From positions 1-38,133 of IMG/VR virus record IMGVR_UViG_3300035698_007443: DNA of 38,133 nucleotides. One strand, given 5' to 3'. Source of the DNA: a virus. Below, piece after piece: positions 3,375 to 37,639 of this stretch. The notes beneath the pieces are model-generated. The model saw only the letters and a list, made by a program, of their open reading frames with translations, did not search any database and was not told where the DNA came from. The position numbers were made by a program, and so were the translations under genes. How positions within the stretch are numbered: position 1 is the stretch's first letter; each line of letters starts with the position of its first letter.

Positions 3375-3375
3375 G

Positions 3376-10585: not shown

Positions 10586-10975
10586 TTACGATGTAGATAT
10601 AGTTGGTGCAGCACCAGCAGACAACACAGTGCATTCTTCCGTCATCGGATTGTCGATGTTGTAAGGCACATTCGTCATCATGCCAGTGCCCAGGAAGCTG
10701 AAGCCCGTGCATGACAGAGACACGACGATGGTTCCACCAGAGATAACGGACATGACGAATTTCGGGGTTGCTGTGAGAAGAGTTGATGCTGTAACTCTCC
10801 AGTCGAATGTTCCGAATTCCCTCATCTTCCAGTTGTCCTGAGCGGCAGTAACGTCGATCTCGTCTGCTGTTATCTCAAGCGATGCTGTTCTGAAAATGGC
10901 TAGTACATCAGCGCCATCAACAGTCATCACTGTTACGTCTTCTTTTGCTGTATGTCGTTCAGTAATCGCAGCCAT
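10586..10975 (-). CDS. Major tail tube protein
   Basis: The 129-residue protein has typical small tail-tube character. It starts with beta-rich TVMTVDGADVLAIFRTASLE, continues with an EIDVTAAQD stretch and GTFDWRVTAS, and ends with strands containing VVSLSCTGFSFLG. Tube proteins of this type assemble hexameric rings stacked on the tape measure. The start is well supported by AGGAGG seven nt before the ATG. The first 43 bp overlap the end of the GT2 glycosyltransferase gene, so the two reading frames share DNA. Position just upstream of the chaperone supports the call. Confidence 0.7.
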   Translation of the reverse strand: MAAITERHTAKEDVTVMTVDGADVLAIFRTASLEITADEIDVTAAQDNWKMREFGTFDWRVTASTLLTATPKFVMSVISGGTIVVSLSCTGFSFLGTGMMTNVPYNIDNPMTEECTVLSAGAAPTISTS

Positions 10976-11760
10976 TTAGGTTCCTCCTCAGACGTAAAGC
11001 GAATTGCGTCGTCTCGCCCTCTGTCTTGAGTATTCCTCGGCGCACGTTGTAGACTTGCGCTGCGTGAGTGTGTGAATGTAGTTGTATTGCACCAAGTATC
11101 CCACCCAGCAGCTAATGCTCTCATGCAGTAATCTGAATCCGAATTATACAGATAGTATTTCTCGTTAAGCAAGCCTATTTCCGAAATCATATCAACGCGC
11201 AGAGCAGCCACAGCAAATGTCACCCAGTGGCACTTGTGTGGTGCATTGTGATCGATGGTGTCGTGGACAAATCTGGTTGCACATAGCCCATCATTCGACA
11301 ACACCGACACATCTTCAGTCACAGAATATACACGCGGCCATAACAACAATATTGGTTTTGGAGCTACCCTGCCACCTGAATGTAACACATCTCCAAACGG
11401 GCTTAACAACTTAGCCCCAACTATACCACATCTTTCATTGTTATGCAAACTATCAAGCAAAAGGCTATCCCACTTATCAGGACACTGCACATCGGGGTTA
11501 ATAATGAATATCCAATCGGAAACACCTTTGTCGAGCAACGTGTTAATGCCCTGGTTGATACCAGCCGTAAACCCAGAGTTTTCATCGTTGGCATGAACAA
11601 CATAATCAGCATTTCCGAGTAGCCGAACAGAACCATCAGTAGATGCATTGTCAACAACTGTTATTGTTGTTGGATATACCACACTGCTCACAACAGTGTT
11701 GAAATTGGCTTTGATATCAGGCTCAGAGTTATATGTCAGATAGACTATTCCATTATTCAC
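10933..11760 (-). CDS. Glycosyltransferase family 2
   Basis: The 275-residue GT-A enzyme resembles rhamnosyl/galactofuranosyl-type GT2 proteins. Nucleotide-sugar binding motifs are visible: VYLTYNSEP at the start, TVVDNASTDGSVRLL near residue 35, and the metal-binding region WIFIINPDVQCPD. Later residues include KYYLYNSDSDYCMRALAAGW, which corresponds to the conserved D-x-D-acceptor loop of this group. It likely adds a sugar to a virion protein or surface glycan. It is embedded among tail genes and overlaps the tail tube gene by 43 bp at its 3' end. Sugar and acceptor cannot be read from sequence. Confidence 0.85.
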   Translation of the reverse strand: MNNGIVYLTYNSEPDIKANFNTVVSSVVYPTTITVVDNASTDGSVRLLGNADYVVHANDENSGFTAGINQGINTLLDKGVSDWIFIINPDVQCPDKWDSLLLDSLHNNERCGIVGAKLLSPFGDVLHSGGRVAPKPILLLWPRVYSVTEDVSVLSNDGLCATRFVHDTIDHNAPHKCHWVTFAVAALRVDMISEIGLLNEKYYLYNSDSDYCMRALAAGWDTWCNTTTFTHSRSASLQRAPRNTQDRGRDDAIRFTSEEEPKWLRLLNDIQQKKT

Positions 11761-11966
11761 TCGGACAGTCTCTCCCTGCCATCGGTGTCATATTGCTTAA
11801 CCGCTACTTTTTTCTTCTCTCCATCTTCTTCTATTTCAACAACAACGTTGGTAGCGCCTATTGCCGCGAGAAGTGTAGAGATAACATCAATACTTGTTTC
11901 ATCTCCTTGTTCTCGTTCTACAGCAATAATAGAACCATCATTCATCATTACCTTGATTATGTTCAT
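11757..11966 (-). CDS. Small hypothetical protein
   Basis: The 69-residue product (MNIIKVMMNDGSIIAVEREQ) is acidic then lysine-rich, with predicted strands and one helix (VISTLLAAIGATNVVVEI). It overlaps the end of the GT9 gene by 29 bp and abuts the start of the GT2 gene by 4 bp, so all three are probably co-translated. It is not recognised. It may be an accessory to the neighbouring glycosyltransferases, but only context supports that. Confidence 0.5.
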   Translation of the reverse strand: MNIIKVMMNDGSIIAVEREQGDETSIDVISTLLAAIGATNVVVEIEEDGEKKKVAVKQYDTDGRERLSE

Positions 11967-13035
11967 GGTAGACCTCCATCAATCTGCTTGCTACTTTGTC
12001 TGGGTCTAAGTCAGTGTATGCCTTACACCACGGATATGTACATGGTGGTGCTTCCTGTACAGACAGACATGGAGAACAATCAACATCACCTTGTATGTAT
12101 TCAACTGTCGGGTAATTCGATGTTCTCACAGAACCGTCTGTGAGTCCGAACAGTCCAAGCGTCGGTATATGCAACGACCCTGCAATATGAAGCGCCGCAG
12201 TATCAACAGTCAAAACAGCATCCATTTGGCTCACAAACGCCACGAAATTCTCAGTGGTGGTCAATACCCCACACATGTCTTGAATGTGCTCAGGCGGCTC
12301 ACACACGTTCTTATCATCATTCACAAACACTGTCCTATGTTCTGGAGTGCCTAATATGTAGCACGAACACCCTTTTTCCACGAGTGACAACATGATAAAC
12401 ACACCAGTATATGGTGGCAAGCTCCTGTAATGGTCCATCGAATTCATCTGGATACCTATAGCCATCCTGTCTTGATCTATGAATTGAGAGATAGGGCCAA
12501 CCAATTCATTGGGCACGGAAGGTGCCGATGGTATTCTTGGTGGTTCAATACCAAGGTGTTCTGCAAAGTTGTCAGACAACTCCTTTTGAACACTCAGTCT
12601 GTCGAGTTCCGCAATGTTTATCCATGCGTCGTAGTAGTCTGCAATCTCTTTTCTCACTGGGTAATCCCATATTTGGTCATACCATGGTTTCAGAAGAGCA
12701 GCGTCTGTAACAGACGAGACTATGCCAATTTCGACATCTGGATACTTATGACGAAAGTCTCTCATGCACGGTCTGAGATTGATCACGTCTCCAATACCGC
12801 CTGGAAAAAAGACAAGCAGCCTCTTTGATTTCTTCGAGTCAAATAACTTGTCTTCAAGTGGTGTAAGCATACAATCGTTGTCGATAAACTTAATTTTCTG
12901 TGCAATCAACTCGGTACAAACATATGGCTTTTTCTCATCAAGCAGCATGAACGCCGCTATTACTCCACCTCTTGCTACTGGACTTGCTAACGACTTAGAT
13001 GTTCTTATCTCAAACAACTGTCGATGTGCTGACAT
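11938..13035 (-). CDS. Glycosyltransferase family 9 (heptosyltransferase-like)
   Basis: The product, about 365 residues, is a GT-B fold enzyme of the LPS heptosyltransferase family. The N-terminal half contains LLVFFPGGIGDVINLRPCM, the acceptor-side glycine loop, and YPDVEIGIVSS. The C-terminal half contains AVLTVDTAALHIAGSLHIPT and LGLFGLTDG, the nucleotide-sugar binding signature (D-T-x-x-x-H-x-A). A cysteine-rich tail (VDCSPC then CTYPWCKAY) is common in this family. The start at 13035 is chosen because AGGAGG sits five nt upstream and the ATG overlaps the previous stop as TAATG. A longer in-frame start exists but lacks this signal. With HldE-like enzymes in the same genome, ADP-heptose is a plausible donor. 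Confidence 0.85.
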   Translation of the reverse strand: MSAHRQLFEIRTSKSLASPVARGGVIAAFMLLDEKKPYVCTELIAQKIKFIDNDCMLTPLEDKLFDSKKSKRLLVFFPGGIGDVINLRPCMRDFRHKYPDVEIGIVSSVTDAALLKPWYDQIWDYPVRKEIADYYDAWINIAELDRLSVQKELSDNFAEHLGIEPPRIPSAPSVPNELVGPISQFIDQDRMAIGIQMNSMDHYRSLPPYTGVFIMLSLVEKGCSCYILGTPEHRTVFVNDDKNVCEPPEHIQDMCGVLTTTENFVAFVSQMDAVLTVDTAALHIAGSLHIPTLGLFGLTDGSVRTSNYPTVEYIQGDVDCSPCLSVQEAPPCTYPWCKAYTDLDPDKVASRLMEVYHEHNQGNDE

Positions 13036-13634
13036 TACTTCCTCCTGAAACCTGCATCCTTGAGTATTCTGGTATGGTTTCGTGCTATGATGCCCTCTTC
13101 CATGCCTTTTTGTGCAATCCATCTGCCAAATGTACGAGCCACCATGTGTGCTCCACTTGCCCCTGTCCAACCTTCTCTCAACGCTTTAGGCAAAGCTATT
13201 GGTGGAAGCTCTGGTGCATATGGCTTCATCTTTGCATCTGTGCCAAGAGCAATGGTTACTTCTCCCTGTGTACTACTGTTTTCCACTTCTGTAAACGAGT
13301 TCCTAAACAGACGACCTCTGCCGCCAGTCATGTTATTCTTTTTCCAAAACGCTTGGATGGCACCAGGGTCCAACCACTCCTGCGGGTTTACTTTCCGTAG
13401 GTCACGAGAGCCAGCACCGCCACCATACATACCGTAGTGTCTTTCATTGAAGTAGGCAACCTGCATTGAGTGAGTTTGACCCTCGCTGGCTTCTAGACAC
13501 TTTCTAAGCAGTGTCTTCGTGTCCCTCTTTATCTTAGTACGAGATGATCCAAGCAAGTCTCTTGCAAGAGCGCTGGATCGTGTCTTGCAGCGACGAGCTA
13601 ATCTTATCCATTCAGTAAAATCTATGCGTATCAT
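13035..13634 (-). CDS. Tail completion/minor tail protein (HK97 gp10-like)
   Basis: The 199-residue basic protein starts MIRIDFTEWIRLARRCKTRS. It has a long helical N-terminus typical of HK97 gp10-like tail-completion proteins, a glycine-rich centre (YGMYGGGAGSRD), then beta strands including GEVTIALGTDAKMKPYAPEL. It lies between the tail terminator and the tail tube, where that family is usually found. It shares 1-bp TAATG junctions with both neighbours, so translation is coupled. The family call is by position and general character. Confidence 0.5.
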   Translation of the reverse strand: MIRIDFTEWIRLARRCKTRSSALARDLLGSSRTKIKRDTKTLLRKCLEASEGQTHSMQVAYFNERHYGMYGGGAGSRDLRKVNPQEWLDPGAIQAFWKKNNMTGGRGRLFRNSFTEVENSSTQGEVTIALGTDAKMKPYAPELPPIALPKALREGWTGASGAHMVARTFGRWIAQKGMEEGIIARNHTRILKDAGFRRK

Positions 13635-27901: not shown

Positions 27902-28228
27902 TTACAACATGGTTTTTCTCATTCTCTCAATATATGGTCTGAGATCATCGTCCTTCGACATCATCGATTCTATTGTTTCCCCTCTCAAAATATTGGTCAA
28001 TATGTTGTTCTGCGCATCAAATATCAATTGAGCCGCTTCCCGATTTGGGTCTTCTATAAATGGGAACATATGTTGTGCTATCTCTTCTACTTTCATAGAC
28101 AACACCGCATACATTAACCATGCCTTTATCTGAAACGAAGAACAACCATCCATGATGTCCATCTGTCTAACACCAACGCTCTCCACGAGTGTGGTGAATT
28201 GATCGAACATATCACTGTTAGTCTTCAT
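27902..28228 (-). CDS. Hypothetical helical protein
   Basis: The 108-residue product (MKTNSDMFDQFTTLVESVGV) is mainly helical, with no cysteine motif or signal sequence. Its start overlaps the end of the adenylyltransferase gene by 11 bp, so the two are probably co-translated. An intrinsic terminator follows 27 bp downstream. The family is not recognised and no function is proposed. Confidence 0.5.
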   Translation of the reverse strand: MKTNSDMFDQFTTLVESVGVRQMDIMDGCSSFQIKAWLMYAVLSMKVEEIAQHMFPFIEDPNREAAQLIFDAQNNILTNILRGETIESMMSKDDDLRPYIERMRKTML

Positions 28229-28676
28229 CCATACTCCCCTTTATTGATGATGATGAATACTTTTTACCATCAGTGGTTGTAAGCGGGCCTACGACAAACT
28301 TAATACCAAGCTCTTTGCAGACAGCCAGTTCCGGGACATCTTCTTCATTTACAGACGCATAGTCACCGCCCTTTACAAATATCACTGGTTTCACCCTACG
28401 GATAAGCTCACCAGGATCGTCTTCATCAAAAATTACTACTTCATTCACGTATCTACATGCTTGAATGAGAAATGCACGTTCGTTGGCTGTGAAAATAACG
28501 GTATCTTTGATTTCATTTGCTCGTCTATCTCCATTTACACCCACAACAAGTGATGGCCAACCATTTTTTGTAACATTTTGGGTGAGAATCTTCTCCCATA
28601 TCCACTCGAAAAGTTTGATGTGACCATGGTGAAGAACATCAAATACACCAGTCGTCAGTATTATTGACTTATCCAT
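28218..28676 (-). CDS. Heptose-1-phosphate adenylyltransferase-like (HldE C-domain/RfaE2)
   Basis: The 152-residue cytidylyltransferase-fold protein would join a nucleotide to a sugar phosphate. LTTGVFDVLHHGHIKLFEW holds the HxGH nucleotide-binding motif (H16-H19). VIFDEDDPGELIRRVKP followed by FVKGGDY (about 100-106) is the characteristic stretch of the HldE adenylyltransferase domain, which makes ADP-heptose from heptose-1-phosphate. KKYSSSSIKG near the end matches the terminal ISSSxI-like motif of the superfamily. Bacterial HldE is usually one bifunctional protein. Here the kinase-like half is a separate gene about 26 kb away in the window (1035-1904). The substrate is inferred from these motifs. 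Confidence 0.8.
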   Translation of the reverse strand: MDKSIILTTGVFDVLHHGHIKLFEWIWEKILTQNVTKNGWPSLVVGVNGDRRANEIKDTVIFTANERAFLIQACRYVNEVVIFDEDDPGELIRRVKPVIFVKGGDYASVNEEDVPELAVCKELGIKFVVGPLTTTDGKKYSSSSIKGSMDED

Positions 28677-29173: not shown

Positions 29174-29884
29174 ATGTACTTGAATAACTTTAGTGTGCGT
29201 ATCCCCGAAGGTGTAGAGACACAAAGCCAATATGTAGAGATGAGACACAGGCAGAAGTATTCAATTTCACTCCGTAATAACAGAGATGTCAGATGTGACG
29301 CAGATATAGTCATCGACGGCAAGTTGGTAGGTACCTGGAGGATCGAAGCCGGTGAATCTATCCGACTGGAACGGCCTGCCGATGAAGCAAAGAAGTTCAC
29401 GTTCTACAAAGCCGATAGTGAAGAAGGACAGCAGGTAGAAGCAGACAACGTAGATAAGCAAGAAAAAGGACTTGTCGAAGTAATATTCAGACCAGAGATG
29501 AAGATAGTCCCACTGATGCGAGTACAAGAACCACAACCATGGCAAACAACATGGGACTCGACTTGGTATACGACGATTGACGGTGGTGCTTGTGATAACA
29601 ATGTTCCAATATCAACATACTACTCGTCAGAAGCATCAGCAGAGCCGAAAATCACAGCAACGAGAAGTGCTGATATAGGAAGAAAAAACTATGGCGAAGG
29701 CGTCACCGGCTTGTCTGGTCACAGCAACCAACAATTCAACACAACATTCTCGCTGGTATATGATGAAGCAGAAACAACAATCATCCACCTGAGACTGGTT
29801 GCAGTTGAAGACGAGAGACAAAACCCGCAACCACTTAGGGCAGTCCGTAATTCAACAGATGTCCCGCCACCGATCTACTGTTGA
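29174..29884 (+). CDS. Conserved protein of unknown function
   Basis: The 236-residue protein begins MYLNNFSVRIPEGVETQSQY. The start is set by AAGGAG nine nt upstream. An upstream in-frame ATG at 29066 has no such site. Sequence character: VEMRHRQKYSISLRNNRDVR, DADIVIDGKLVGTWRIEAGE and LERPADEAKKFTFYKADSEE suggest beta sandwiches. GEGVTGLSGHSNQQFNT is a distinctive block, and the tail is Pro-rich (DVPPPIYC). I recall similar uncharacterised proteins but can name no function. It has its own promoter, and a consensus promoter overlaps its stop codon. Confidence 0.7.
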   Translation: MYLNNFSVRIPEGVETQSQYVEMRHRQKYSISLRNNRDVRCDADIVIDGKLVGTWRIEAGESIRLERPADEAKKFTFYKADSEEGQQVEADNVDKQEKGLVEVIFRPEMKIVPLMRVQEPQPWQTTWDSTWYTTIDGGACDNNVPISTYYSSEASAEPKITATRSADIGRKNYGEGVTGLSGHSNQQFNTTFSLVYDEAETTIIHLRLVAVEDERQNPQPLRAVRNSTDVPPPIYC

Positions 29885-29909
29885 CAAGTAACGTAGACAT
29901 GTGTATAAT
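29881..29909 (+). promoter_or_regulatory. Consensus sigma70 promoter for putative sRNA
   Basis: TTGACA (29881-29886), a 17-nt spacer and TATAAT (29904-29909) match the sigma70 consensus exactly. It overlaps the stop codon of the upstream gene. There is no reading frame downstream before a terminator, so the product should be a short RNA. Confidence 0.85.
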
Positions 29910-29915
29910 AAAGAA

Positions 29916-30000
29916 CAAGTAGGCTGTAAAGACCGTATCTGGCGAGACCCACAGCGCGGAGGTCAAGAAAGAGCCCCCTCACACCAATAGGGGGCTCTTT
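29916..30000 (+). ncRNA. Putative phage small RNA (about 85 nt)
   Basis: The interval lies between a perfect consensus promoter and a strong intrinsic terminator and contains no credible open frame. Possible internal structure is GCTGT (29923-29927) with ACAGC (29951-29955). It also contains GCGGAGGTC (29956-29964), identical to the first nine bases of the tRNA-His encoded on the opposite strand just downstream. It may act as an antisense or decoy RNA, or be a remnant of a tRNA-like sequence. Expression is inferred from signals only. Confidence 0.6.
29968..30000 (+). terminator. Strong bidirectional intrinsic terminator
   Basis: AAAGAGCCCCCT and AGGGGGCTCTTT form a 12-bp stem around a 9-nt loop, with A-run and T-run flanks. 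It ends the putative sRNA on the plus strand and could also stop minus-strand transcripts leaving the tRNA-His gene. Confidence 0.9.
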
Positions 30001-30008
30001 CGATTCAT

Positions 30009-30086
30009 TGGGGCGAAGGACGGGATTTGAACCCGCGAGTATGCGGACCACGACCGCATGTCTTAACCAGACTTGACGACCTCCGC
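30009..30086 (-). tRNA. tRNA-His(GTG)
   Basis: Cloverleaf read on the minus strand: acceptor GCGGAGG/CCTTCGC, anticodon loop TCGTGGT in a TGCGG/CCGCA stem, T-loop TTCAAAT. The discriminator is C, as expected for histidine tRNAs, and CCA is encoded. Confidence 0.95.
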
Positions 30087-30092
30087 TATTTT

Positions 30093-30127
30093 TGGGGTGG
30101 GGCAGGATGCAGTCCCGCGCCACCCCA
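30093..30127. other. Strong hairpin downstream of the CRISPR array
   Basis: TGGGGTGG (30093-30100) and CCACCCCA (30120-30127) form an 8-bp GC-rich stem around a 19-nt loop. On the minus strand it lies about 100 nt past the last repeat and just before tRNA-His, but it is followed by A residues rather than a U-run. It may be a processing or 3'-protecting element for the array transcript rather than a classic terminator. The arms resemble the GGGTGG end of the repeat. Confidence 0.5.
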
Positions 30128-30230
30128 CGTCTATTTGCTGCCGTCCACTCTGCACAACGAACGACAGGGGGTATAATTGGTACTTGACGCAAAACTGTAG
30201 CCATAGTGTCTTCTACACCAAGACTTACCC

Positions 30231-30442
30231 CCAACCACCCTCGCGCGCGCGGAACATACGATTCTCAATTCACAGCAAAACAGCAACGACTCCAACCACC
30301 CTCGCGCGCGCGGAACATACCAGCGGGGGCACATACGATAACCCCGAAGAATCCAACCACCCTCGCGCGCGCGGAACATACTCGTCATCATGATCGTGTC
30401 GTCCGTAAACCAACCAACCACCCTCGCGCGCGCGGAACATAC
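30231..30442 (-). CRISPR. Mini CRISPR array: 4 identical 29-bp repeats, 3 spacers of 32 bp
   Basis: Repeats lie at 30231-30259, 30292-30320, 30353-30381 and 30414-30442 and are all identical. On the minus strand each reads GTATGTTCC, then a GC-alternating centre, then GAGGGTGGTTGG. Spacers at 30260-30291, 30321-30352 and 30382-30413 are each exactly 32 bp and unrelated to each other. The 29/32 geometry and the repeat's character are those of type I-E arrays, yet no type I cas gene is in the window. The minus-strand direction is inferred from similarity of the repeat's 3' end to I-E handles and from the adjacent same-strand nuclease gene. The perfect identity of all repeats argues for recent use or recent acquisition. 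Confidence 0.95.
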
Positions 30443-30454
30443 ACCAACCGCACA

Positions 30455-30483
30455 CAATGTTCCGCAACACATGGGGTGGTGCC
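30455..30483 (-). ncRNA. Inverted degenerate repeat: tracrRNA-like anti-repeat
   Basis: This sequence is an inverted partial copy of the CRISPR repeat, placed between the TnpB-like stop codon and the first repeat. Transcribed on the minus strand it contains ACCACCC and GCGGAACAT, separated by 8 nt. These are exactly complementary to GGGTGGT and ATGTTCCGC in the repeat, which are also separated by 8 nt. The duplex would be 9 bp, an 8x8 internal loop, then 7 bp, much like tracrRNA:crRNA pairing. A small hairpin (TGCCTG/CAGGCA, 30480-30500) lies immediately 5' of it on the transcript. Chance matching of both blocks in register is very unlikely. Function as tracrRNA is inferred. Confidence 0.75.
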
Positions 30484-30510
30484 TGCCGTGAAGACAGGCA
30501 ACCGCAGTTA

Positions 30511-31737
30511 CTACACTGCTTCGCGCTTCACTGGGGCTGGTTTCACGTTGGCAATCAAACTGCCAACGCCAGAGCCGTCCCCTCCACGCGCGTTTAGACT
30601 CTCGCCAGTTTTTGACGCGAGTTGCTTCAGGTTTACCGCCGCATTTAGATCGCGGTCGATAACCAACCCACACTCATTACATGTAAATGTTCGCTCACTC
30701 AACGACAATTCAGATTTGATACAACCACAACCAGAACACGTCTTACTACTTGGATACCATCTATCTGCTACGATGATTGTAACACCATACCACGCTGCTT
30801 TATATGTAAGCTGACGACGCATCTCTCCCATTGATGAATCGGCAATTGATATAGCCAAACGCCTGTTCTTCAACATTCCACTCACGTTTAGGTCTTCAAT
30901 AACAACTACACTAGGCCGTAGGTGTGCAGGCTTATCGACGCCGATGATGGCTGATGTTATCCTGTGTATTTCATGTTTAAGGATGTCTGCAATATGCCTA
31001 TGTAGGTTCTTAATGCGTATCTGCGTATCGTGCCACCGATTGCTCGGGGGATGTCCATGACTTGGTTTATCCTGTCGATCAGATTTACGCTGCAGGCGTG
31101 CCATCTTTTTCATTTTCTTTCGATACGAACGTGGAGAACACCATGTTCGTCCATCAGATGTAACGGCCAATTGCGAACATCCCAGATCAACACCAATTGG
31201 TTTTCCTGTTGCAATGTCGGCTTCGGTTGATTCCTCTACTTGTACAGATGCAAACCATCGACCTCCTTTGCAACTAACAGTAACGGACATGATATTTCCT
31301 TCAGTCATAACAGGGAGATACGCTCGTTCTTTAATGCGTACCCAACCAATCTTCTGCAATCTAATACGCTTTTGTGTAATGTGGTGTAGCGAAACACCCC
31401 AAAACTTGATAGCACACCATCCACGATATTTGCTTTTGAACCTCGGGAAACCACGTGGCTTGCCATCTTTACGTGGTTTCGATGATTTAGGTAACTTGCG
31501 TTTCCCACTGCATACATCAAACCAGAATTGATATGCACTATCCAGCATCCGTCCGGCAGTTTCCTCAACACGACTGCAATACTGTCTCATCCAAGGAAAG
31601 TGACTATCCTTTCTGGAACGGAAATGCTTGATAAGCCTGCTTGTGAAGATGGTTTTGTTGCCATCAGTTGCGTGTTGCCCAAACATACTATAGTGTCGAA
31701 TTCGACGGGCAAGCATCCAGTTATAAGCAAATCTCAC
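30511..31737 (-). CDS. tnpB: TnpB/Cas12f-like RNA-guided RuvC nuclease
   Basis: The 408-residue frame (from GTG at 31737) is an IS200/IS605-type TnpB, related to compact type V effectors. RuvC-I is IGVDLGCSQLAV (D184), RuvC-II is VVVIEDLNVSGM (E281), the zinc finger is CSGC...CNEC (C334, C337, C353, C356), and RuvC-III is IDRDLNAAVNLK (D361/D363). Catalytic residues look intact. The conserved TnpB N-terminus YKTELDPNETQLKALYRHSG is in frame upstream to about 31812, but no ATG, GTG or TTG lies in that frame before a TGA at 31830. Initiation may be at a rare codon (ATT at 31821, 10 nt after AAGAGG), or a frameshift has occurred. No tnpA or IS ends are seen. An anti-repeat and a CRISPR array follow on the same strand. 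Confidence 0.9.
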   Translation of the reverse strand: MRFAYNWMLARRIRHYSMFGQHATDGNKTIFTSRLIKHFRSRKDSHFPWMRQYCSRVEETAGRMLDSAYQFWFDVCSGKRKLPKSSKPRKDGKPRGFPRFKSKYRGWCAIKFWGVSLHHITQKRIRLQKIGWVRIKERAYLPVMTEGNIMSVTVSCKGGRWFASVQVEESTEADIATGKPIGVDLGCSQLAVTSDGRTWCSPRSYRKKMKKMARLQRKSDRQDKPSHGHPPSNRWHDTQIRIKNLHRHIADILKHEIHRITSAIIGVDKPAHLRPSVVVIEDLNVSGMLKNRRLAISIADSSMGEMRRQLTYKAAWYGVTIIVADRWYPSSKTCSGCGCIKSELSLSERTFTCNECGLVIDRDLNAAVNLKQLASKTGESLNARGGDGSGVGSLIANVKPAPVKREAV

Positions 31738-31861
31738 TGCACCCGAATGTCTATATAGCGCCTTCAGTTGTGTTTCGTTCGGGTCAAGTTCTGTTTTGTA
31801 TGCCCGCTGAATTGATGAAATTACAAGTCATCCTCTTGTCTTGTTAGTTAGTGTTAATTTC

Positions 31862-31889
31862 AATATACCGCACTGTATGTTGTTTCAAA
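31862..31889 (-). promoter_or_regulatory. Possible promoter of the tnpB-like gene
   Basis: On the minus strand TTTGAA/TTGAAA lies 15-16 nt before TATATT (31867-31862). AAGAGG follows at 31837-31832. The spacing is short for sigma70, so this is only a candidate, but it is the best signal in the 140-bp gap between tRNA-Pro and the nuclease gene, which otherwise holds T-rich sequence and no gene. Confidence 0.4.
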
Positions 31890-31976
31890 CATCTTTTTTT
31901 TGTTTCGTGTGATGCGGTTTCGCCATCCCGGAATTGCTTTTTTCATGTTCACAAAAAAAATAGCCATGAGAAAAAA

Positions 31977-32056
31977 TGGTCTGGGTGGAGAGATTCGAAC
32001 TCCCGAGAATTTCCTCATCCCAAATGAGGCGTCTTAGACCGCTAGACTACACCCAG
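31977..32056 (-). tRNA. tRNA-Pro(TGG)
   Basis: Minus-strand cloverleaf: acceptor CTGGGTG/CACCCAG, anticodon stem CCTCA/TGAGG with loop TTTGGGA, T-loop TTCGAAT, discriminator A and encoded CCA. Confidence 0.95.
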
Positions 32057-32130
32057 ACTTTGCGGGCGGCACTGACTTTCACCATGACCAATCAGCCACT
32101 ATAGCGACCGTTGATTGCCACTCCGAAGAC

Positions 32131-32466
32131 TTAACTGTCACCATACTTCTTCTTCAGTCTCTCGTACTCACGGCAGTCCTTCTCTTCTTTCTTGGCTTTC
32201 TTGGTAGCTTTCCCTTTCTCTACTGCTTCATGTTTCTTTTTTCTTGCATTGAATTCTTTGTCTGTTTCAAGACGAGTTCCAGAAAATTCAACAGCATCAT
32301 CGTATACATACTCTACTCGAATATTGGTATATCCAGCAGCAACCATTTCATCTTTATTGTCTTGTAGTTCCTTTATTGCCCCGTCAATGGTTGTATCGAA
32401 AATATCATATGGACAAACACGTTCATACACAGCTTCCACTTCTTCTTTCTCATTTACGTAAGCCAT
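32131..32466 (-). CDS. Small charged phage protein, unknown function
   Basis: The 111-residue protein begins MAYVNEKEEVEAVYERVCPY. The C-terminal third is a highly charged helix, lysine- and glutamate-rich (EFNARKKKHEAVEKGKATKK then EYERLKKKYGDS). Phage early-region proteins with an N-terminal alpha/beta domain and a similar K/E-rich tail ending in YERLKKKYG are common, but their role is unknown to me. The start has an AGG motif (GAAAGGTATGTG) nearby. It lies between tRNA-Pro and tRNA-Ile. Confidence 0.7.
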   Translation of the reverse strand: MAYVNEKEEVEAVYERVCPYDIFDTTIDGAIKELQDNKDEMVAAGYTNIRVEYVYDDAVEFSGTRLETDKEFNARKKKHEAVEKGKATKKAKKEEKDCREYERLKKKYGDS

Positions 32467-32491
32467 TTCACATACCTTTCCAACGATGTTT

Positions 32492-32567
32492 TGGTGCAGG
32501 GGGACGAATTCGAATCGCCAACCTCAGCATTATCATTGCTGCCCTCTACCAGTTGAGATACCCCTGC
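32492..32567 (-). tRNA. tRNA-Ile(GAT)
   Basis: Minus-strand cloverleaf: acceptor GCAGGGG/CCCCTGC, anticodon stem CAGCA/TGCTG with loop ATGATAA, T-loop TTCGAAT, discriminator A and encoded CCA. Confidence 0.92.
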
Positions 32568-32584
32568 ACTTTGAATATGAAGAT

Positions 32585-32663
32585 GGGGATGGGTTCCATG
32601 CTTCCCTAAGAGCACAATGCTACCAGCTTAGGGCTGGTGGTCTGCTACGCATTGACCATCCCC
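32585..32663 (-). ncRNA. tRNA-sized structured RNA with predicted pseudoknot
   Basis: The element is closed by GGGGATGG/CCATCCCC and sits in line with the tRNA genes, but neither strand offers a proper T-arm. On the minus strand a GGTC/GACC hairpin is followed by ACCAG-loop-CTGGT. The loop CCCTAAG is fully complementary to CTTAGGG downstream, giving a 7-bp loop-to-downstream pairing (pseudoknot). Read as a tRNA the anticodon would be CTA with C at position 33 on the minus strand, or TAG on the plus strand. No CCA is encoded. It may be a degenerate tRNA, a small ribozyme or a regulatory RNA. Confidence 0.5.
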
Positions 32664-32676
32664 ATCAAATTATTTG

Positions 32677-32751
32677 GCATGAGCAGAAGGGATTGAACCC
32701 TCGTCTATCGGGTTGGAACCGATGGTAATAACCACTATACTATACTCATGC
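32677..32751 (-). tRNA. tRNA-Trp(CCA)
   Basis: Minus-strand cloverleaf: acceptor GCATGAG/CTCATGC, anticodon stem ATCGG/CCGAT with loop TTCCAAC, T-loop TTCAATC. Unlike its neighbours it has no encoded CCA end (acceptor is followed by CAAA). Confidence 0.92.
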
Positions 32752-32753
32752 TA

Positions 32754-32828
32754 TGGCTGCGGTAGGAGGGATCGAACCTCCGACTATCGGGCAACAGCCG
32801 ATTATTTTACCTACTAAACTACACCGCA
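32754..32828 (-). tRNA. tRNA-Asn(GTT)
   Basis: Minus-strand cloverleaf: acceptor TGCGGTG/TACCGCA, anticodon stem ATCGG/CCGAT with loop CTGTTGC, T-loop TTCGATC, discriminator G and encoded CCA. Confidence 0.93.
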
Positions 32829-32835
32829 GTCCTGC

Positions 32836-33192
32836 TTACTTATAACTGTATACGAAATAACCAAAAATGGCTACATCATTTGACTCGAAATCGTACTGTG
32901 CTCCAACACCAGCCCTATCTGCCATCGTGAATGACTTGAGTTGATCAATGACAGGAAATCCATCTGGTGCATCAGCACTACACCCAAGCCCAGCATTCGA
33001 GAAATCAACAGATGCAAATGTATCAGCATAGAACTCGAAGTCAAACCATTCCCCGATCCTGTAGCTAGCCTGTAGGCTCGGAACTGTAATATCCGCTGAA
33101 CTCCACAGGATGCCGACAGAGCCGTTGTTATCAGCAAGTGCAGGTGTAGCCATACAAGCGATTACTACGAGTGCTACAATCAGATTCTTCAT
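32836..33192 (-). CDS. Secreted (signal-peptide) protein, unknown function
   Basis: The 118-residue protein starts MKNLIVALVVIACMATPALA, a textbook Sec signal peptide with cleavage after PALA, then DNNGSVGILWSS. The mature part is beta-rich with aromatic strands (GEWFDFEFYADTFASVDFSN) and ends GYFVYSYK, like a small periplasmic or outer-membrane beta protein. The start is fixed by GGAGAC before the ATG. A longer upstream ATG would bury the signal peptide. A palindrome TTGAGTTACTCAA at 33216-33228 lies in its upstream region and could be an operator. A superinfection or envelope-modifying role is possible but unproven. Confidence 0.7.
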   Translation of the reverse strand: MKNLIVALVVIACMATPALADNNGSVGILWSSADITVPSLQASYRIGEWFDFEFYADTFASVDFSNAGLGCSADAPDGFPVIDQLKSFTMADRAGVGAQYDFESNDVAIFGYFVYSYK

Positions 33193-33263
33193 GTTGTCTC
33201 CGTTATACCCATTAGTTGAGTTACTCAAACAACGATTTTACCACATATTCTATTTTGCTTCAA

Positions 33264-34271
33264 TCAGTGCTTTTCCGTTCCACCACTACGAGACAGATAA
33301 TCATCTGAAACAAACTTGAGGATTCTCCTCCCTATTTTAGCATGAGTGCTGTTCAGTAGCGATCTGACAACAACGCCTTCGCGCATGCACTCACCCTCGC
33401 ATTCTGTATTTCCAGAAGCAAGTTCACGCATCTTGTCTCGATCATATGGCCCACGATAGATAACAGGTGCTGTTGGAATGTCGTGCTCTTCACAGGTAAC
33501 GGAAAACTCATCACAGGTATAGTACAGGCCGTCAACCTCTATGTCAAACGCTCGATATAGATATTCACCAGAGCTTGTGCCATACCGCAAGTCCTGGACC
33601 CATCCATAAATCTCTCCGTAGATGATGGCGCTGTACTCAGCATCGAGCGAACGCAATAAATCCCTAAGCGGATGAATGAACATTGGCTGCTCATATAGAG
33701 AACTTATGCCCATCGGATGTGTGTGATTACGGCTACCCACCATGAACTCGCAGTCAACATATCCAATCCTGCTGTTTGTACCATGAATCTTTTCAGTTGC
33801 AACAACCATCTCTCCAGGCTCGAACACGGAAGGATAGTTACGTTCGTTTTGTATCTTCGTATACAGACAGAAGTGTGGGTGGTTTGATATCAGGTTGGCA
33901 TCTTGCGGCTCTGGTGGATCGTACTTCTCGATGTTGTAAAACTCAGCAGCGTTGCTACCGACATCAAGATTGTCATCGTTGGGAATAACAAAGCCATGAC
34001 TTGGTTCGCCACGCAACTTCACAGCACGAACTCTCCCGTGTTGTGGCCCACTCTTACCAAACGATAGATACTTAACAACACCCCACGTTGTTGCTATATC
34101 CACTGGTACTATCGACTCTGGCGGGATGTGAACAACAACATCTCCATCGTTGAATGATTCCTTTTTAACAACAACCTGCCAACCACCAACCTGCGCGATT
34201 TCGAGAGAATCAGCATTTGGATGAACGCTTATGCTATCTATTGCACATACGCTACAGATTAGATCGCTCAC
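33264..34271 (-). CDS. RNA ligase (Rnl family, DraRnl/Rnl5-like)
   Basis: The product, about 335 residues, is an ATP-dependent RNA ligase. An N-terminal OB-like domain (DSISVHPNADSLEIAQVGGW) precedes the adenylyltransferase domain. Motif I is VATEKIHGTNSRIGYV with the catalytic K of KIHG. Motif III is IIYGEIYGWV, motif IV is MREGVVVRSL and motif V is RRILKFVSDDYL. This order and the N-terminal extension match the Deinococcus RnlA-type family. It seals RNA nicks. Surrounded by tRNA genes, its likely job is repair of tRNAs cut by host anticodon nucleases. The GTG at 34271 is preferred because GGAG lies five nt upstream. An ATG at 34292 has no such site. Confidence 0.85.
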   Translation of the reverse strand: MSDLICSVCAIDSISVHPNADSLEIAQVGGWQVVVKKESFNDGDVVVHIPPESIVPVDIATTWGVVKYLSFGKSGPQHGRVRAVKLRGEPSHGFVIPNDDNLDVGSNAAEFYNIEKYDPPEPQDANLISNHPHFCLYTKIQNERNYPSVFEPGEMVVATEKIHGTNSRIGYVDCEFMVGSRNHTHPMGISSLYEQPMFIHPLRDLLRSLDAEYSAIIYGEIYGWVQDLRYGTSSGEYLYRAFDIEVDGLYYTCDEFSVTCEEHDIPTAPVIYRGPYDRDKMRELASGNTECEGECMREGVVVRSLLNSTHAKIGRRILKFVSDDYLSRSGGTEKH

Positions 34272-34301
34272 TCGATCTCCATTCCTTTGCATGATTTGTT
34301 G

Positions 34302-34378
34302 TGGTGCCCCGAGTCGGACTCGAACCGACGACTCCCTGATTAAAAGTCAGGTACTGCTACCAACTGAGTTACCGAGGC
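34302..34378 (-). tRNA. tRNA-Lys(TTT)
   Basis: Minus-strand cloverleaf: acceptor GCCTCGG/TCGGGGC, anticodon stem CCTGA/TCAGG with loop CTTTTAA, T-loop TTCGAGT, discriminator A and encoded CCA. Confidence 0.95.
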
Positions 34379-34386
34379 ACAAAGAT

Positions 34387-34463
34387 TGGAGCGCCCGACA
34401 GGACTCGAACCTGTGTCAAATCGGGTAGAATCCGACCACTCTAATCCACTGAGTTACGGGCGC
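34387..34463 (-). tRNA. tRNA-Arg(TCT)
   Basis: Minus-strand cloverleaf: acceptor GCGCCCG/CGGGCGC, anticodon stem GTCGG/CCGAT with loop ATTCTAC, T-loop TTCGAGT, discriminator T and encoded CCA. Confidence 0.95.
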
Positions 34464-34478
34464 TTTTCGTTAGGCATA

Positions 34479-34766
34479 CTATTCAAGATCGAGTTTTTCC
34501 TGCGCATCACTAATGAGTATTTCCCTTTCTTCTCGTGGAACATCATCACTGATATGAACCATTGTCCAATCAGCAGCTACACCTTGAAGAACGTCTTCCC
34601 ATGGTTTATCAATCTGATGTACCCATCCAACTGTCCATTCTGGTGGATTCCACGATCCATCTACATCATCAACGCTATTGTTGGCTATCGTCTCCGCTTC
34701 TTCTTTTGAAGCTGCATAAACATCTACATCGAATGTTCTTTCAAACTCAATCCTGTAGTACGGCAT
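34479..34766 (-). CDS. Small phage protein, unknown function
   Basis: The 95-residue acidic protein starts MPYYRIEFERTFDVDVYAAS. The start follows GGAGG with a 5-nt spacer. An ATG four codons earlier is less well placed. The N-terminal beta strand, then KEEAETIANNSVDDVDGSWN, resembles short phage proteins with a beta-alpha 'DpnD/PcfM-like' fold (xYRVxVEETxxxxVxVxAxSxEEAxxxA), which is a tentative resemblance. No function is proposed. It lies between tRNA-Arg and tRNA-Met. Confidence 0.65.
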   Translation of the reverse strand: MPYYRIEFERTFDVDVYAASKEEAETIANNSVDDVDGSWNPPEWTVGWVHQIDKPWEDVLQGVAADWTMVHISDDVPREEREILISDAQEKLDLE

Positions 34767-34783
34767 ATCGACCTCCAATTTGT

Positions 34784-34860
34784 TGGTGGGCGCACGAGGG
34801 ATTGAACCTCGGACCTGCGCATTATGGGTGCGCTGCTCTGAACCCCTGAGCTATACGCCC
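34784..34860 (-). tRNA. tRNA-Met(CAT), C33 variant
   Basis: Minus-strand cloverleaf: acceptor GGGCGTA/TGCGCCC, anticodon stem GCGCA/TGCGC with loop CCCATAA, T-loop TTCAATC, discriminator A and encoded CCA. The loop has C where U33 is nearly universal. The CAT anticodon could also be tRNA-Ile2 if C34 is modified. Confidence 0.88.
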
Positions 34861-34865
34861 ATGTT

Positions 34866-34950
34866 TGGTGCCGGAGGAGGGATTTGAACCCTCAATCCCG
34901 AAGGCACCTGTTCTTAAAACAGGCATGTATTCCAGTTCCACCACCCCGGC
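34866..34950 (-). tRNA. tRNA-Leu(TAA)
   Basis: Minus-strand class II tRNA: acceptor GCCGGGG/CTCCGGC, anticodon stem CCTGT/ACAGG with loop TTTAAGA, long variable arm (TGCCTTCGGGA), T-loop TTCAAAT, discriminator A and encoded CCA. Confidence 0.95.
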
Positions 34951-34956
34951 AATATT

Positions 34957-35034
34957 TGGTAGCGGAGGTGGGATTTGAACCCACACTACCCGATTTTTGA
35001 GATCGGTCCCTCTGCCAATTGGACTCACTCCGCC
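34957..35034 (-). tRNA. tRNA with CAA anticodon (Leu), atypical short variable arm
   Basis: Minus-strand cloverleaf: acceptor GGCGGAG/CTCCGCT, anticodon stem CCGAT/ATCGG with loop CTCAAAA, T-loop TTCAAAT, discriminator A and encoded CCA. The anticodon reads UUG (Leu), but the variable region is only 5 nt, whereas bacterial leucine tRNAs have a long arm. Amino acid identity is therefore uncertain. Confidence 0.85.
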
Positions 35035-35038
35035 ATTT

Positions 35039-35115
35039 TGGTAACCCCGGAGGGATTCGAACCCCCAACACAGCGGGTCTAAACCGCACGCATCTACCAG
35101 TTGGGCTACGGGGTT
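35039..35115 (-). tRNA. tRNA with TAG anticodon (Leu), atypical short variable arm
   Basis: Minus-strand cloverleaf: acceptor AACCCCG/CGGGGTT, anticodon stem TGCGG/CCGCT with loop TTTAGAC, T-loop TTCGAAT, discriminator A and encoded CCA. The anticodon reads CUA (Leu), but the variable arm is only 5 nt and the outermost anticodon pair is mismatched. Charging identity is uncertain. Confidence 0.85.
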
Positions 35116-35127
35116 ACTAATATTAAT

Positions 35128-35217
35128 TGGAGCCAGCGGTAGGATTCGAACCTACGATGTTAGCCAATCGGCACCAGATTTACAGTCTGGCTCCTTCAGC
35201 CACTTGGATACGCTGGC
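35128..35217 (-). tRNA. tRNA-Tyr(GTA)
   Basis: Minus-strand class II tRNA: acceptor GCCAGCG/CGCTGGC, anticodon stem CCAGA/TCTGG with loop CTGTAAA, long variable arm, T-loop TTCGAAT, discriminator T and encoded CCA. Confidence 0.94.
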
Positions 35218-35226
35218 ATCAGATCA

Positions 35227-35532
35227 TTAGTCAAACATCTCTTGTACTTTTCTCCACAACTCGAAGTACAATGCATCTCCGTAACGGACAACATGTGGTG
35301 TAAACTCGTCAATGCCATCTTCGATCTTGCGGATAGACATTGGCGTACACCAATCAATGTATGCATCCTGGTTAGCATCTATGAACAACATCTTGGCTTG
35401 CCCGCGTGTCTTGGCAACCACAACATCGACTATTCCTACAATCTCTCTGCGTTCCCAGTAGTCGATAGTCTCGACTGTTGCCTCGTGCTCACCTGCATCG
35501 CAAAAGTATGCATTCATTACTGTGTTTACCAT
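35227..35532 (-). CDS. Small phage protein, unknown function
   Basis: The 101-residue protein (MVNTVMNAYFCDAGEHEATV) has strands and helices consistent with a compact alpha/beta fold. VAKTRGQAKMLFIDANQDAY is its most distinctive stretch and resembles short phage proteins that start with an 'F-x-V-x-A-x-x-x-G-x-A-r' pattern. Its ATG overlaps the previous stop as TAATG, implying coupling. It is not recognised. Confidence 0.6.
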   Translation of the reverse strand: MVNTVMNAYFCDAGEHEATVETIDYWERREIVGIVDVVVAKTRGQAKMLFIDANQDAYIDWCTPMSIRKIEDGIDEFTPHVVRYGDALYFELWRKVQEMFD

Positions 35533-35978
35533 TAGATTGATATAACTGTATTTTCGTTAAATTTCCCATCATAGTTTGCTCCACAAGAATGTCTCAAGGA
35601 AAGAAGTGGAATCTCTTGTATACCAAGATGGTTACACTGTTTTGTAGCCCATTTACCTCCACACTGATCTTCGACAACTTTGAACACGAATTCCTTGGCC
35701 CAATCCCATACAGAACTCATATCACTTGTGCTATCTTCGTCAAAGACAAACCCAGGCCAATGCTCAATAACAGCACCATGCTTCATCCTGTCTGCACGCC
35801 CAAATGATATGTCACGACCTACTTGCTTGTTGTACATATCATTTACAGAACACTTAGCAATCCCAACCTTTACCATTTGTGCTTCTTCGTCGAGGATAAC
35901 ACAAGCAGTAACACCACCACGCCCAAATAGATTATCATCGTCATCGTAATACCTGTAGTGAATGTACCTCGGTTTCAT
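35532..35978 (-). CDS. Phage protein, unknown function
   Basis: The 148-residue protein starts MKPRYIHYRYYDDDDNLFGR, set by GGAGAT immediately before the ATG. GGVTACVILDEEAQMVKVGI, then KCSVNDMYNKQVGRDISFGR, is reminiscent of phage proteins of unknown function that contain a C-x-x-x-D-x-F/Y-x-K-x-x-G-r motif. A cysteine pair occurs later (EDQCGGKWATKQCN). No function is claimed. It is coupled to the following small gene by a TAATG overlap. Confidence 0.65.
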   Translation of the reverse strand: MKPRYIHYRYYDDDDNLFGRGGVTACVILDEEAQMVKVGIAKCSVNDMYNKQVGRDISFGRADRMKHGAVIEHWPGFVFDEDSTSDMSSVWDWAKEFVFKVVEDQCGGKWATKQCNHLGIQEIPLLSLRHSCGANYDGKFNENTVISI

Positions 35979-36042
35979 ATCTCCATCCTTTCGTTTATTA
36001 CGTGTTGTTATAAGCCTACCCAACGGTAACCTACATCAAACA

Positions 36043-36492
36043 TTACTTCACAACAGTTGTTACCGTGTTGATAAACTCACTCATTACAAGATAGTCAATG
36101 GTGGCAATATTGATGATGTTAATAACACAACCAACTATAGACCCAAAAATACCAATAGACCCAAATACAATACCTAATGCCCACATGTTGTCACGGGTAT
36201 ACAAACGACTACTAACAACAACAAAAACTATGCTGAGAATCAATCCAAATACTGCAACACCAAGACATGAATAACAATTGATAGTATATCGTCTTTCAAT
36301 AGCCTGATAATACACCAGTCCCGGTCCGCTCAGTTTTCCTTCCAGCAAATCAACAATGCCTTCAACACAATCTACCATTCCATCTGCATCAAGCACAACT
36401 TCAACAGTCTGTGCTTTCTCCGAAGATTCATCTGCAACACAAACACCTGCTGTAACCAAAAGAACAACAAAAAACCATACATTAGTGTTCAT
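36043..36492 (-). CDS. Membrane protein with signal sequence and two TM segments
   Basis: The 149-residue protein starts MNTNVWFFVVLLVTAGVCVA, a signal or anchor sequence. The start follows AAAGGAGACAGGT. An acidic loop comes next (KAQTVEVVLDADGMVDCVEG), then two membrane spans (LGVAVFGLILSIVFVVVSS and LGIVFGSIGIFGSIVGCVIN). It is probably inserted in the host inner membrane. Phages often encode such proteins for superinfection exclusion or lysis control, but nothing in this sequence identifies the role. Confidence 0.65.
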   Translation of the reverse strand: MNTNVWFFVVLLVTAGVCVADESSEKAQTVEVVLDADGMVDCVEGIVDLLEGKLSGPGLVYYQAIERRYTINCYSCLGVAVFGLILSIVFVVVSSRLYTRDNMWALGIVFGSIGIFGSIVGCVINIINIATIDYLVMSEFINTVTTVVK

Positions 36493-36585
36493 ACCTGTCT
36501 CCTTTGTGTTGTTGTATGTTGCACATATGCGCAACATGCTTGTTTCTTACAACATACCCGCCAATCACTACGGCCAAACATCTTT

Positions 36586-36662
36586 TGGAGCCGGTGGTCC
36601 GATTTGAACGGACGGCCTGAGAAGTACAAATTCCCTGCTCTAATCCACTGAGCTACACCGGC
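36586..36662 (-). tRNA. tRNA-Thr(TGT)
   Basis: Minus-strand cloverleaf: acceptor GCCGGTG/CACCGGC, anticodon stem GGGAA/TTCTC with loop TTTGTAC, T-loop TTCAAAT, discriminator T and encoded CCA. Its 5' ten bases overlap the 3' end of the upstream small gene. Confidence 0.94.
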
Positions 36663-36934
36663 TCATCATCCAACAGATACTGAGTGCTTGCTATCATGTC
36701 TTCAATGGCTTTCTGTGGTGTCATGCCATAGCCTTGGGGGTAATCATTACATACAACAAAGTGACGTTTTACGATGCCACCCCCGTCAGGAACAACTGTC
36801 TTGATTGTGTGTGCTGTCCACTTCTCATCCATAGAATACAACTCTGGGTTGTCTCTACGATCTTCAGCAGATGAACAATATAGCCTTATCGTAAACCCAC
36901 GACCAATCTTAACCATGAACTCATCAAGCGTCAT
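36653..36934 (-). CDS. Small phage protein, unknown function
   Basis: The 93-residue protein begins MTLDEFMVKIGRGFTIRLYC. Its C-terminal part CNDYPQGYGMTPQKAIEDMI is a typical 'G-x-G-x-T-P-x-x-A-I-x-D' pattern of short phage and plasmid proteins of unknown function. The stop codon lies inside the tRNA-Thr 5' end (10-bp overlap), so mRNA and tRNA processing compete for the same sequence. No function is proposed. Confidence 0.65.
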   Translation of the reverse strand: MTLDEFMVKIGRGFTIRLYCSSAEDRRDNPELYSMDEKWTAHTIKTVVPDGGGIVKRHFVVCNDYPQGYGMTPQKAIEDMIASTQYLLDDEPV

Positions 36935-36955
36935 GCTTCACCTCTTTGATGTATT

Positions 36956-37032
36956 TGGTGCCCCCAGCGGGATTCGAACCCGCGATTTCAACCTTGAAAG
37001 GGTTGCGTCCTTGACCGCTAGACTATGGGGGC
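36956..37032 (-). tRNA. tRNA-Glu(TTC)
   Basis: Minus-strand cloverleaf: acceptor GCCCCCA/TGGGGGC, anticodon stem CAACC/GGTTG with loop CTTTCAA, T-loop TTCGAAT, discriminator A and encoded CCA. Confidence 0.95.
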
Positions 37033-37037
37033 ACTCG

Positions 37038-37298
37038 CTAATTTTCCATTACTCTTACCATTAAACTCCAGATACTCTCAAACAAACCACACTTCCGCTC
37101 GAACAACTGACACTTCCCGTCGTTGTTTACATTTCTACAATCAAGCACTCCTTCCCAACCAATACGACCAGTTATCGAACAAGTGTGTCTTACTGCATTG
37201 GCATGACATAACCAGCTTTCTCCACCAAAATAATCGGATGGATAGTAACGACAATGCCTGCACCTCACACAAATCACTTTCTCATTAATCTTGGACAT
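37038..37298 (-). CDS. Cysteine-rich putative zinc-binding protein
   Basis: The 86-residue protein has a CVRCRHC cluster near the start, then WLCHAN, HTCSITGR and LDCRNVN...KCQLFERKC, enough cysteine and histidine for one or two zinc sites. This pattern resembles short phage zinc proteins that begin with a CxxCxxC-like cluster and end in a C-x-x-F motif. It overlaps the upstream basic protein gene by 25 bp. The function is unknown. Nucleic-acid binding is possible. Confidence 0.6.
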   Translation of the reverse strand: MSKINEKVICVRCRHCRYYPSDYFGGESWLCHANAVRHTCSITGRIGWEGVLDCRNVNNDGKCQLFERKCGLFESIWSLMVRVMEN

Positions 37299-37489
37299 GT
37301 TGCTGGATCAAACATTCCTTTTCCGTCTCTTGGAGAGCGATATGGATTCCCAAACTGCCACTTGTGGGCTACTTGCCCTGTGCTTCTCTCCCATGCTCGT
37401 CTACGCCTACGCGAGAACCGCTTGTACCATCCACTCCACTTGGTAGAACAGAATGCTGAGAAAGGTCTCTTCTTACGCGATCTCGACAT
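37274..37489 (-). CDS. Small basic MSRSRKK-type phage protein
   Basis: The 71-residue highly basic protein starts MSRSRKKRPFSAFCSTKWSG and continues with a run of arginines (RFSRRRRRAWERS). Short proteins with the same MSRSRKK opening are frequent in phage genomes and remain uncharacterised. The charge suggests nucleic-acid binding. Its end overlaps the zinc-binding protein gene. Confidence 0.65.
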   Translation of the reverse strand: MSRSRKKRPFSAFCSTKWSGWYKRFSRRRRRAWERSTGQVAHKWQFGNPYRSPRDGKGMFDPATCPRLMRK

Positions 37490-37551
37490 ACGACCACCAC
37501 CAATTAGCTTTTACCAACAAACGGTATGTGACTGTTCTTGTATAAAACTGT

Positions 37552-37639
37552 TGGAGGCAGAGGGGAGATTCGAACTCCCGAAACCTTTCGGTCTAACGGT
37601 TTTCAGGACCGCCGCCTTAAGCCACTCGGCCACCCTGCC
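37552..37639 (-). tRNA. tRNA-Ser(TGA), C33 variant
   Basis: Minus-strand class II tRNA: acceptor GGCAGGG/CTCTGCC, anticodon stem GCGGT/ACCGT with loop CCTGAAA, long variable arm, T-loop TTCGAAT, discriminator T and encoded CCA. Position 33 is C rather than U. Confidence 0.93.

Follow-up and report, generated by a model that had tools for sequence, protein, structure and literature searches.

Criteria for Cas12n (V-U4) include an AAN PAM and cleavage of dsDNA, and the TranC nucleases (for example, LaTranC) have reportedly been proposed as TnpB-to-Cas12 intermediates with a split guide RNA. The tracrRNA of Cas12n lies inside the effector's own mRNA (reviewed in PMC11641405). In the cryo-EM study of ISDra2 TnpB, the omega-RNA is described as a natural sgRNA made up of a tracr-like and a crRNA-like half, and the tracrRNA and the array are proposed to have arisen by splitting of the omega-RNA (PMC10097598). 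TnpB is inferred to have become associated with CRISPR arrays about 50 times independently, and such events are held to be frequent (PMC12669027). Landfill viruses encode TnpB proteins of 401 and 433 amino acids beside CRISPR arrays, reported in a main text in which no tracrRNA or anti-repeat is discussed and the term tracrRNA is absent (PMC12607003). The open step in these associations is how the guide RNA makes the change.

The window analysed here is the entire virus record IMGVR_UViG_3300035698_007443, a fragment of 38,133 bases that contains phage-type genes (terminase-, tape-measure- and RNA-ligase-like) and 15 tRNA genes. Its minus strand holds, to judge by the sequence, an intact nuclease gene, an omega-RNA core, an anti-repeat and a CRISPR array, with cognate complementarity between the last two. 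Our preferred reading, which we hold to be probable, is that this is a TnpB-type RNA-guided nuclease of a phage with an acquired short CRISPR array and an omega-RNA that ends in an anti-repeat. A search for related phages by means of the terminase returned only distant ones without synteny, and no close relative with the same locus was found.

The fifteen phage tRNA genes form a cluster at 30009–37639, which includes the RNA ligase gene (33264–34292), perhaps with a role in tRNA repair. On the plus strand, the interval 29881–30004 has a perfect sigma-70 consensus promoter (TTGACA-17-TATAAT), followed after approximately 90 bases by a strong GC hairpin and a T run, and is likely to be a small RNA gene flanked by a coding gene and tRNA-His. 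The small RNA (29916–30004) was considered as an omega-RNA start and rejected, its likeness being not significant (182 of 1,000 shuffles). Sugar-kinase-like, cytidylyltransferase and glycosyltransferase-like genes were recognized by eye at 1035–1904, 10933–13170 and 28218–28676, the last of which Pfam confirms as a cytidylyltransferase; such genes suggest that the phage alters surface sugars.

The tnpB/Cas12-like gene (30511–31827, minus strand, with its stop at 30511) was assigned from Pfam, PADLOC and alignment with ISDra2 TnpB, and is predicted to encode a nuclease of the TnpB/Cas12 type. Its frame comprises 438 codons with no in-frame stop. The product matches OrfB_IS605, Cas12f1-like_TNB and HTH_OrfB in Pfam, has Cas12u4 as its best PADLOC model (2.8e-82) and is aligned along its length by ISDra2 TnpB (E 7e-46), with conservation of GVDLG, IEDLN, the four zinc cysteines and DRDLNAA; the RuvC D-E-D triad and the Zn-ribbon cysteines are intact. 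The TnpB homology extends from near 31812, approximately 25–30 codons upstream of the first in-frame ATG, GTG or TTG (31737–31827, minus strand), which is a GTG at 31737. No ordinary start codon (ATG/GTG/TTG) is present where the homology begins; translation may start at a rare codon (ATT after AGAGGA), or the start codon may be damaged. Together with an array of only four repeats and the clear truncation of a Janibacter relative, this missing start would suit a decayed relic, that is, a locus that once worked and whose gene or array is now unused. Such decay is made quite improbable by the fully open frame with intact catalytic residues, by four repeats identical over 29 nt, and by an anti-repeat that still matches them.

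The array comprises four identical 29-nt repeats and 32-nt spacers on the minus strand: repeat 1 (GTATGTTCCGCGCGCGCGAGGGTGGTTGG, 30414–30442), spacer 1 (30382–30413), repeat 2 (30353–30381), spacer 2 (30321–30352), repeat 3 (30292–30320), spacer 3 (30260–30291) and repeat 4 (30231–30259). Past repeat 4, the geometry suggests a possible terminal guide (30199–30230, minus strand) that no further repeat bounds. No match was found for the three spacers or for this candidate guide, no convincing protospacer was detected in phages, plasmids, viral contigs or the window, and the exact repeat does not occur in the viral contigs. The geometry is that of type I-E (29/32, period 61) and is the same as in arrays beside cas1e. 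The repeat matches I-E repeats from cas1e loci at a mean of 16.4 of 29 positions, with none of 3,000 shuffles as similar to these or to V-U4 repeats, and is not similar to the other repeat types found; it belongs to the I-E-like class. An array of this geometry, with a repeat resembling those of cas1e loci, could also be a mini-array that serves the host Cascade or nothing and that lies by chance beside an ordinary TnpB with a normal omega-RNA, in which case the complementarity would be accidental. However, V-U4 repeats are equally I-E-like, so I-E geometry does not separate the two explanations; moreover, the 38,133-base record lacks Cas1, and no gene of type I-E was observed.

The anti-repeat (30457–30480, minus strand) lies between the end of tnpB and the four-repeat array and was delimited by its in-register complementarity to each repeat. 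It reads ACCACCC-CATGTGTT-GCGGAACAT from 30480 to 30457, with the block ACCACCC at 30480–30474 and the block GCGGAACAT at 30465–30457, and the partner blocks are found in every repeat, which has the form ATGTTCCGC-GCGCGCGA-GGGTGGT. The original prediction of two blocks complementary to every repeat in register, with 7 and 9 bases and the same 8-nt gap, was reproduced. It had drawn the duplex as 7 bp, an 8 × 8 loop and 9 bp; the two paired blocks stand, but the loop is not fully open, as most of it is pairable through G-U and G-C. A 9-mer and a 7-mer in register had further been held to be unlikely by chance, and this was borne out: scored as the sum of in-register perfect blocks of 6 or more, the site reaches 16 (9 + 7), and none of 8,000 dinucleotide shuffles of the 68-nt gene-to-array stretch equals it (maximum of 14), which argues against accidental complementarity. 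There is no second site for the 9 + 7 block match in the window on either strand, and the plain match count (16 of 24) is equalled by one scattered match in 76 kb. The predicted anti-repeat:repeat duplex has an energy of −34.6 kcal/mol, and 28 of 2,000 shuffles are as good, so that the pairing is no more than a modest improvement on chance when judged by duplex energy alone; this measure is less telling because both partners are GC-rich. The improbable part is therefore the block structure rather than the raw energy.

Related TnpBs have in common an omega-RNA core located at the gene's 3′ end, and a corresponding core, delimited by stem 1 covariation and by its fold, overlaps the 3′ end of the window tnpB (30522–30590, minus strand). 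Stem 1 pairs CGCG (30590–30587) with CGCG (30525–30522) and encloses a TGGAG motif and a hairpin formed by CGTTGGCA (30568–30561) and TGCCAACG (30553–30546). Full pairing of this four-base stem occurs in 71 of the 126 related loci, through 22 different helices, compared with 16% for shuffled partners, a pattern that may partly reflect codon use because the stretch is also coding. The window RNA folds better than shuffles (z of −3.3). The core is followed by a 7-bp hairpin, the anti-repeat, a 14-nt loop (TGTGTGCGGTTGGT, 30443–30456, minus strand) and repeat 1. The hairpin, identified from the fold and from comparison of related 3′ ends (GCCTGTC and GGCAGGC around TTCAC, 30481–30499, minus strand), directly precedes the anti-repeat and lies where related omega-RNAs have their last scaffold stem. 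The hairpin had been predicted correctly at this place, with 6 bp; its extent is as given here and its 7 bp include one G-U. No Rfam omega-RNA family matched the window RNA, and the canonical omega-RNA pseudoknot strand just before the guide is not recognizable at the 3′ end of the repeat; pairing of GGTTGG with CCAGCC is a guess at such a pseudoknot.

Because the omega-RNA core of related TnpBs is present in the RNA over the 3′ end of tnpB, the anti-repeat is placed at the end of an omega-RNA. It is predicted to be the 3′ end of an omega-RNA that overlaps tnpB rather than a free-standing tracrRNA gene, and instead of Cas9 the associated effector is a nuclease of the TnpB type. Alternatively, the end of the omega-RNA could be a CGG ahead of the array, as it is in some relatives, which would favour a chance neighbour. 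Under the preferred reading, the 3′ end of the tnpB transcript would be the omega-RNA and the anti-repeat its terminal segment. The distance of 14 nt to repeat 1 points to a cis hairpin as the primary structure, in which pairing with repeat 1 would provide a ready-made single guide for spacer 1; pairing in trans with repeats 2–4 would let the anti-repeat act as a tracrRNA. Co-folding in cis (through spacer 1) and in trans (with a separate repeat-spacer RNA) gave the same predicted scaffold and duplex. Each such duplex would supply TnpB with a crRNA that carries a 32-nt spacer, leading to cutting of matching DNA. We infer that the locus is transcribed and that its RNA is processed, loaded into TnpB and directed to DNA; the anatomy of the locus and the example of Cas12n make RNA-guided DNA cutting by TnpB, with the omega-RNA as tracrRNA, the most likely mechanism. 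The layout is that predicted by the split-omega-RNA idea (PMC10097598).

Few of the loci fetched by TnpB similarity have adjoining arrays; this screen yielded one in Janibacter terrae (L029), where the gene is truncated, and one on a viral contig (L087, other repeat type). In the former (2431–3826), the truncated TnpB lies behind an ISL3-like transposase, the five-repeat array is intact, and the genome is without cas1e. In the latter (2983–4620), the viral TnpB gene is directly followed by an array with 30-nt repeats and a period of about 65–66, a helix of approximately 15 bp can form between the last codons of the gene and the repeat, and the TnpB clade differs from those of the window and of V-U4. 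No arrays were found with the two TnpBs of the huge phage LR745208.1 (about 40%) or with Actinomycete TnpBs at 40–42%, and a second I-E-like array (L176) was rejected as a comparable locus, being without TnpB. A PADLOC Cas12u4 search of 395 Actinomycete genomes set apart a true V-U4 group (E 1e-164 or better, the next being 1e-127), with arrays directly downstream in three of its seven members, and a search of viral contigs with the V-U4 alignment added five more loci with clear arrays. All V-U4 loci with clear arrays have I-E-like repeats of 28–29 nt with a period of 61 or close to it (arrays at L253, L255, L257, L267, L268, L270, L271 and L275). They share with the window the order of gene, hairpin, anti-repeat and array, a recurrence that argues against a chance neighbour, and in each the last scaffold hairpin is followed by an anti-repeat particular to that locus, as in L271 (CCTTCCCCGCAC with GTGCGGGGAAGG, and GGCGGAC with GTCCGCC) and L257 (TCACCCCCG with CGGGGGTGA). 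The motif CAGGTC..AAG just before repeat 1 is common to several V-U4 loci. The viral contig L275 carries, with its V-U4-like gene, two arrays of the same repeat approximately 1.5 kb apart (4597–4860 and about 6083) and further repeat copies upstream of that gene.

Covariation between repeat and anti-repeat, which the original prediction had named as a check, was assessed in 11 loci in which an array directly follows a TnpB-like gene, by pairing every pre-array region with every repeat and permuting the assignments. Cognate pairing beats all 400,000 of 400,000 re-pairings (z = −5.0). Among the V-U4-type loci alone, 10 of 200,000 permutations are as good as the cognate one, and for the first six loci the cognate assignment is the best of 720; in the overall best assignment, three V-U4-type loci whose repeats are alike are not paired as in the cognate one. 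The window region ranks its own repeat first and the Janibacter repeat a close second, so the window pair alone is not decisive, and it fits the cognate pattern. This fit of regions to their repeats across the 11 loci favours a tracrRNA-type anti-repeat, as originally proposed, and makes accidental complementarity to a neighbouring array unlikely.

In the phylogenetic tree, the window TnpB falls among 28 phage TnpBs (SH-aLRT of 96) and apart from the V-U4 clade, its long end branch leaving the exact position unsure. No array was detected with the other phage TnpBs of this group, and these array-free nearest relatives are what a chance neighbour would lead one to expect. A single clade of the window and V-U4 is rejected (p-AU of 0.003); this result suggests an association that resembles V-U4 but arose independently. 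Read most directly, the evidence points to an independent association with the array class of V-U4; the array end may instead have been recombined in from a V-U4 locus. More tentatively, and with doubts outweighing our confidence, a second, independent phage TnpB lineage may have become a CRISPR effector in the manner of V-U4, the end of its omega-RNA having turned into an anti-repeat for I-E-type repeats and host I-E adaptation proteins being able to supply spacers. If this is true, type I-E arrays would have served more than once as a stepping stone on the way from TnpB to Cas12. Geometry is the sole hint of spacer supply by host type I-E proteins, which remains a guess; the idea that V-U4 genomes always carry cas1e was rejected, since only three of the seven V-U4 genomes have it and the Janibacter genome does not.

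The end of the guide scaffold matches the adjoining repeats, so the locus resembles a natural transitional form, part jumping-gene nuclease and part CRISPR system; it is a variant among the TnpB-to-Cas12 intermediates, an already known kind. In this short phage locus, which belongs to a lineage apart from V-U4, the scaffold of the omega-RNA, the anti-repeat and the repeats still form one contiguous stretch, and the I-E-like array class is common to both lineages. The split-omega-RNA idea is directly testable by swapping repeats and anti-repeats among the window and V-U4 loci. Defence, competition with other phages and host control are candidate roles, and a nuclease of 438 amino acids with a short natural guide is of practical interest.

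Like the TnpBs of IS605/IS607 elements (ISDra2), the window protein has the same fold family, catalytic residues, zinc ribbon and OrfB domains, and an omega-RNA core overlaps the 3′ end of its gene; in contrast to them, the locus has an array of repeats and spacers in place of a single transposon-end guide, and no Y1 transposase (PF01797) was matched in the 38,133-base record. LaTranC chains match the RuvC part of the protein (E 3e-20), whereas similarity outside the C-terminal half is weak. The array shares the 29-nt repeat, the 32-nt spacer and the repeat sequence class of type I-E, from which the locus differs in that no cas1e or Cascade genes were seen in this record fragment, the repeat hairpin is degenerate, and an anti-repeat is present. 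Compared with V-U4, the protein lies outside the clade, and TGTGCGGTTGGT takes the place of the CAGGTC..AAG motif that precedes repeat 1 in several V-U4 loci, a motif that is not a published criterion. With V-U4 (Cas12n), the locus has in common a TnpB-like RuvC nuclease (400–800 amino acids, 438 in the window), a tracrRNA or anti-repeat between the gene end and the array, and an array directly downstream with I-E-like repeats of 28–29 nt at a period of approximately 61 nt.
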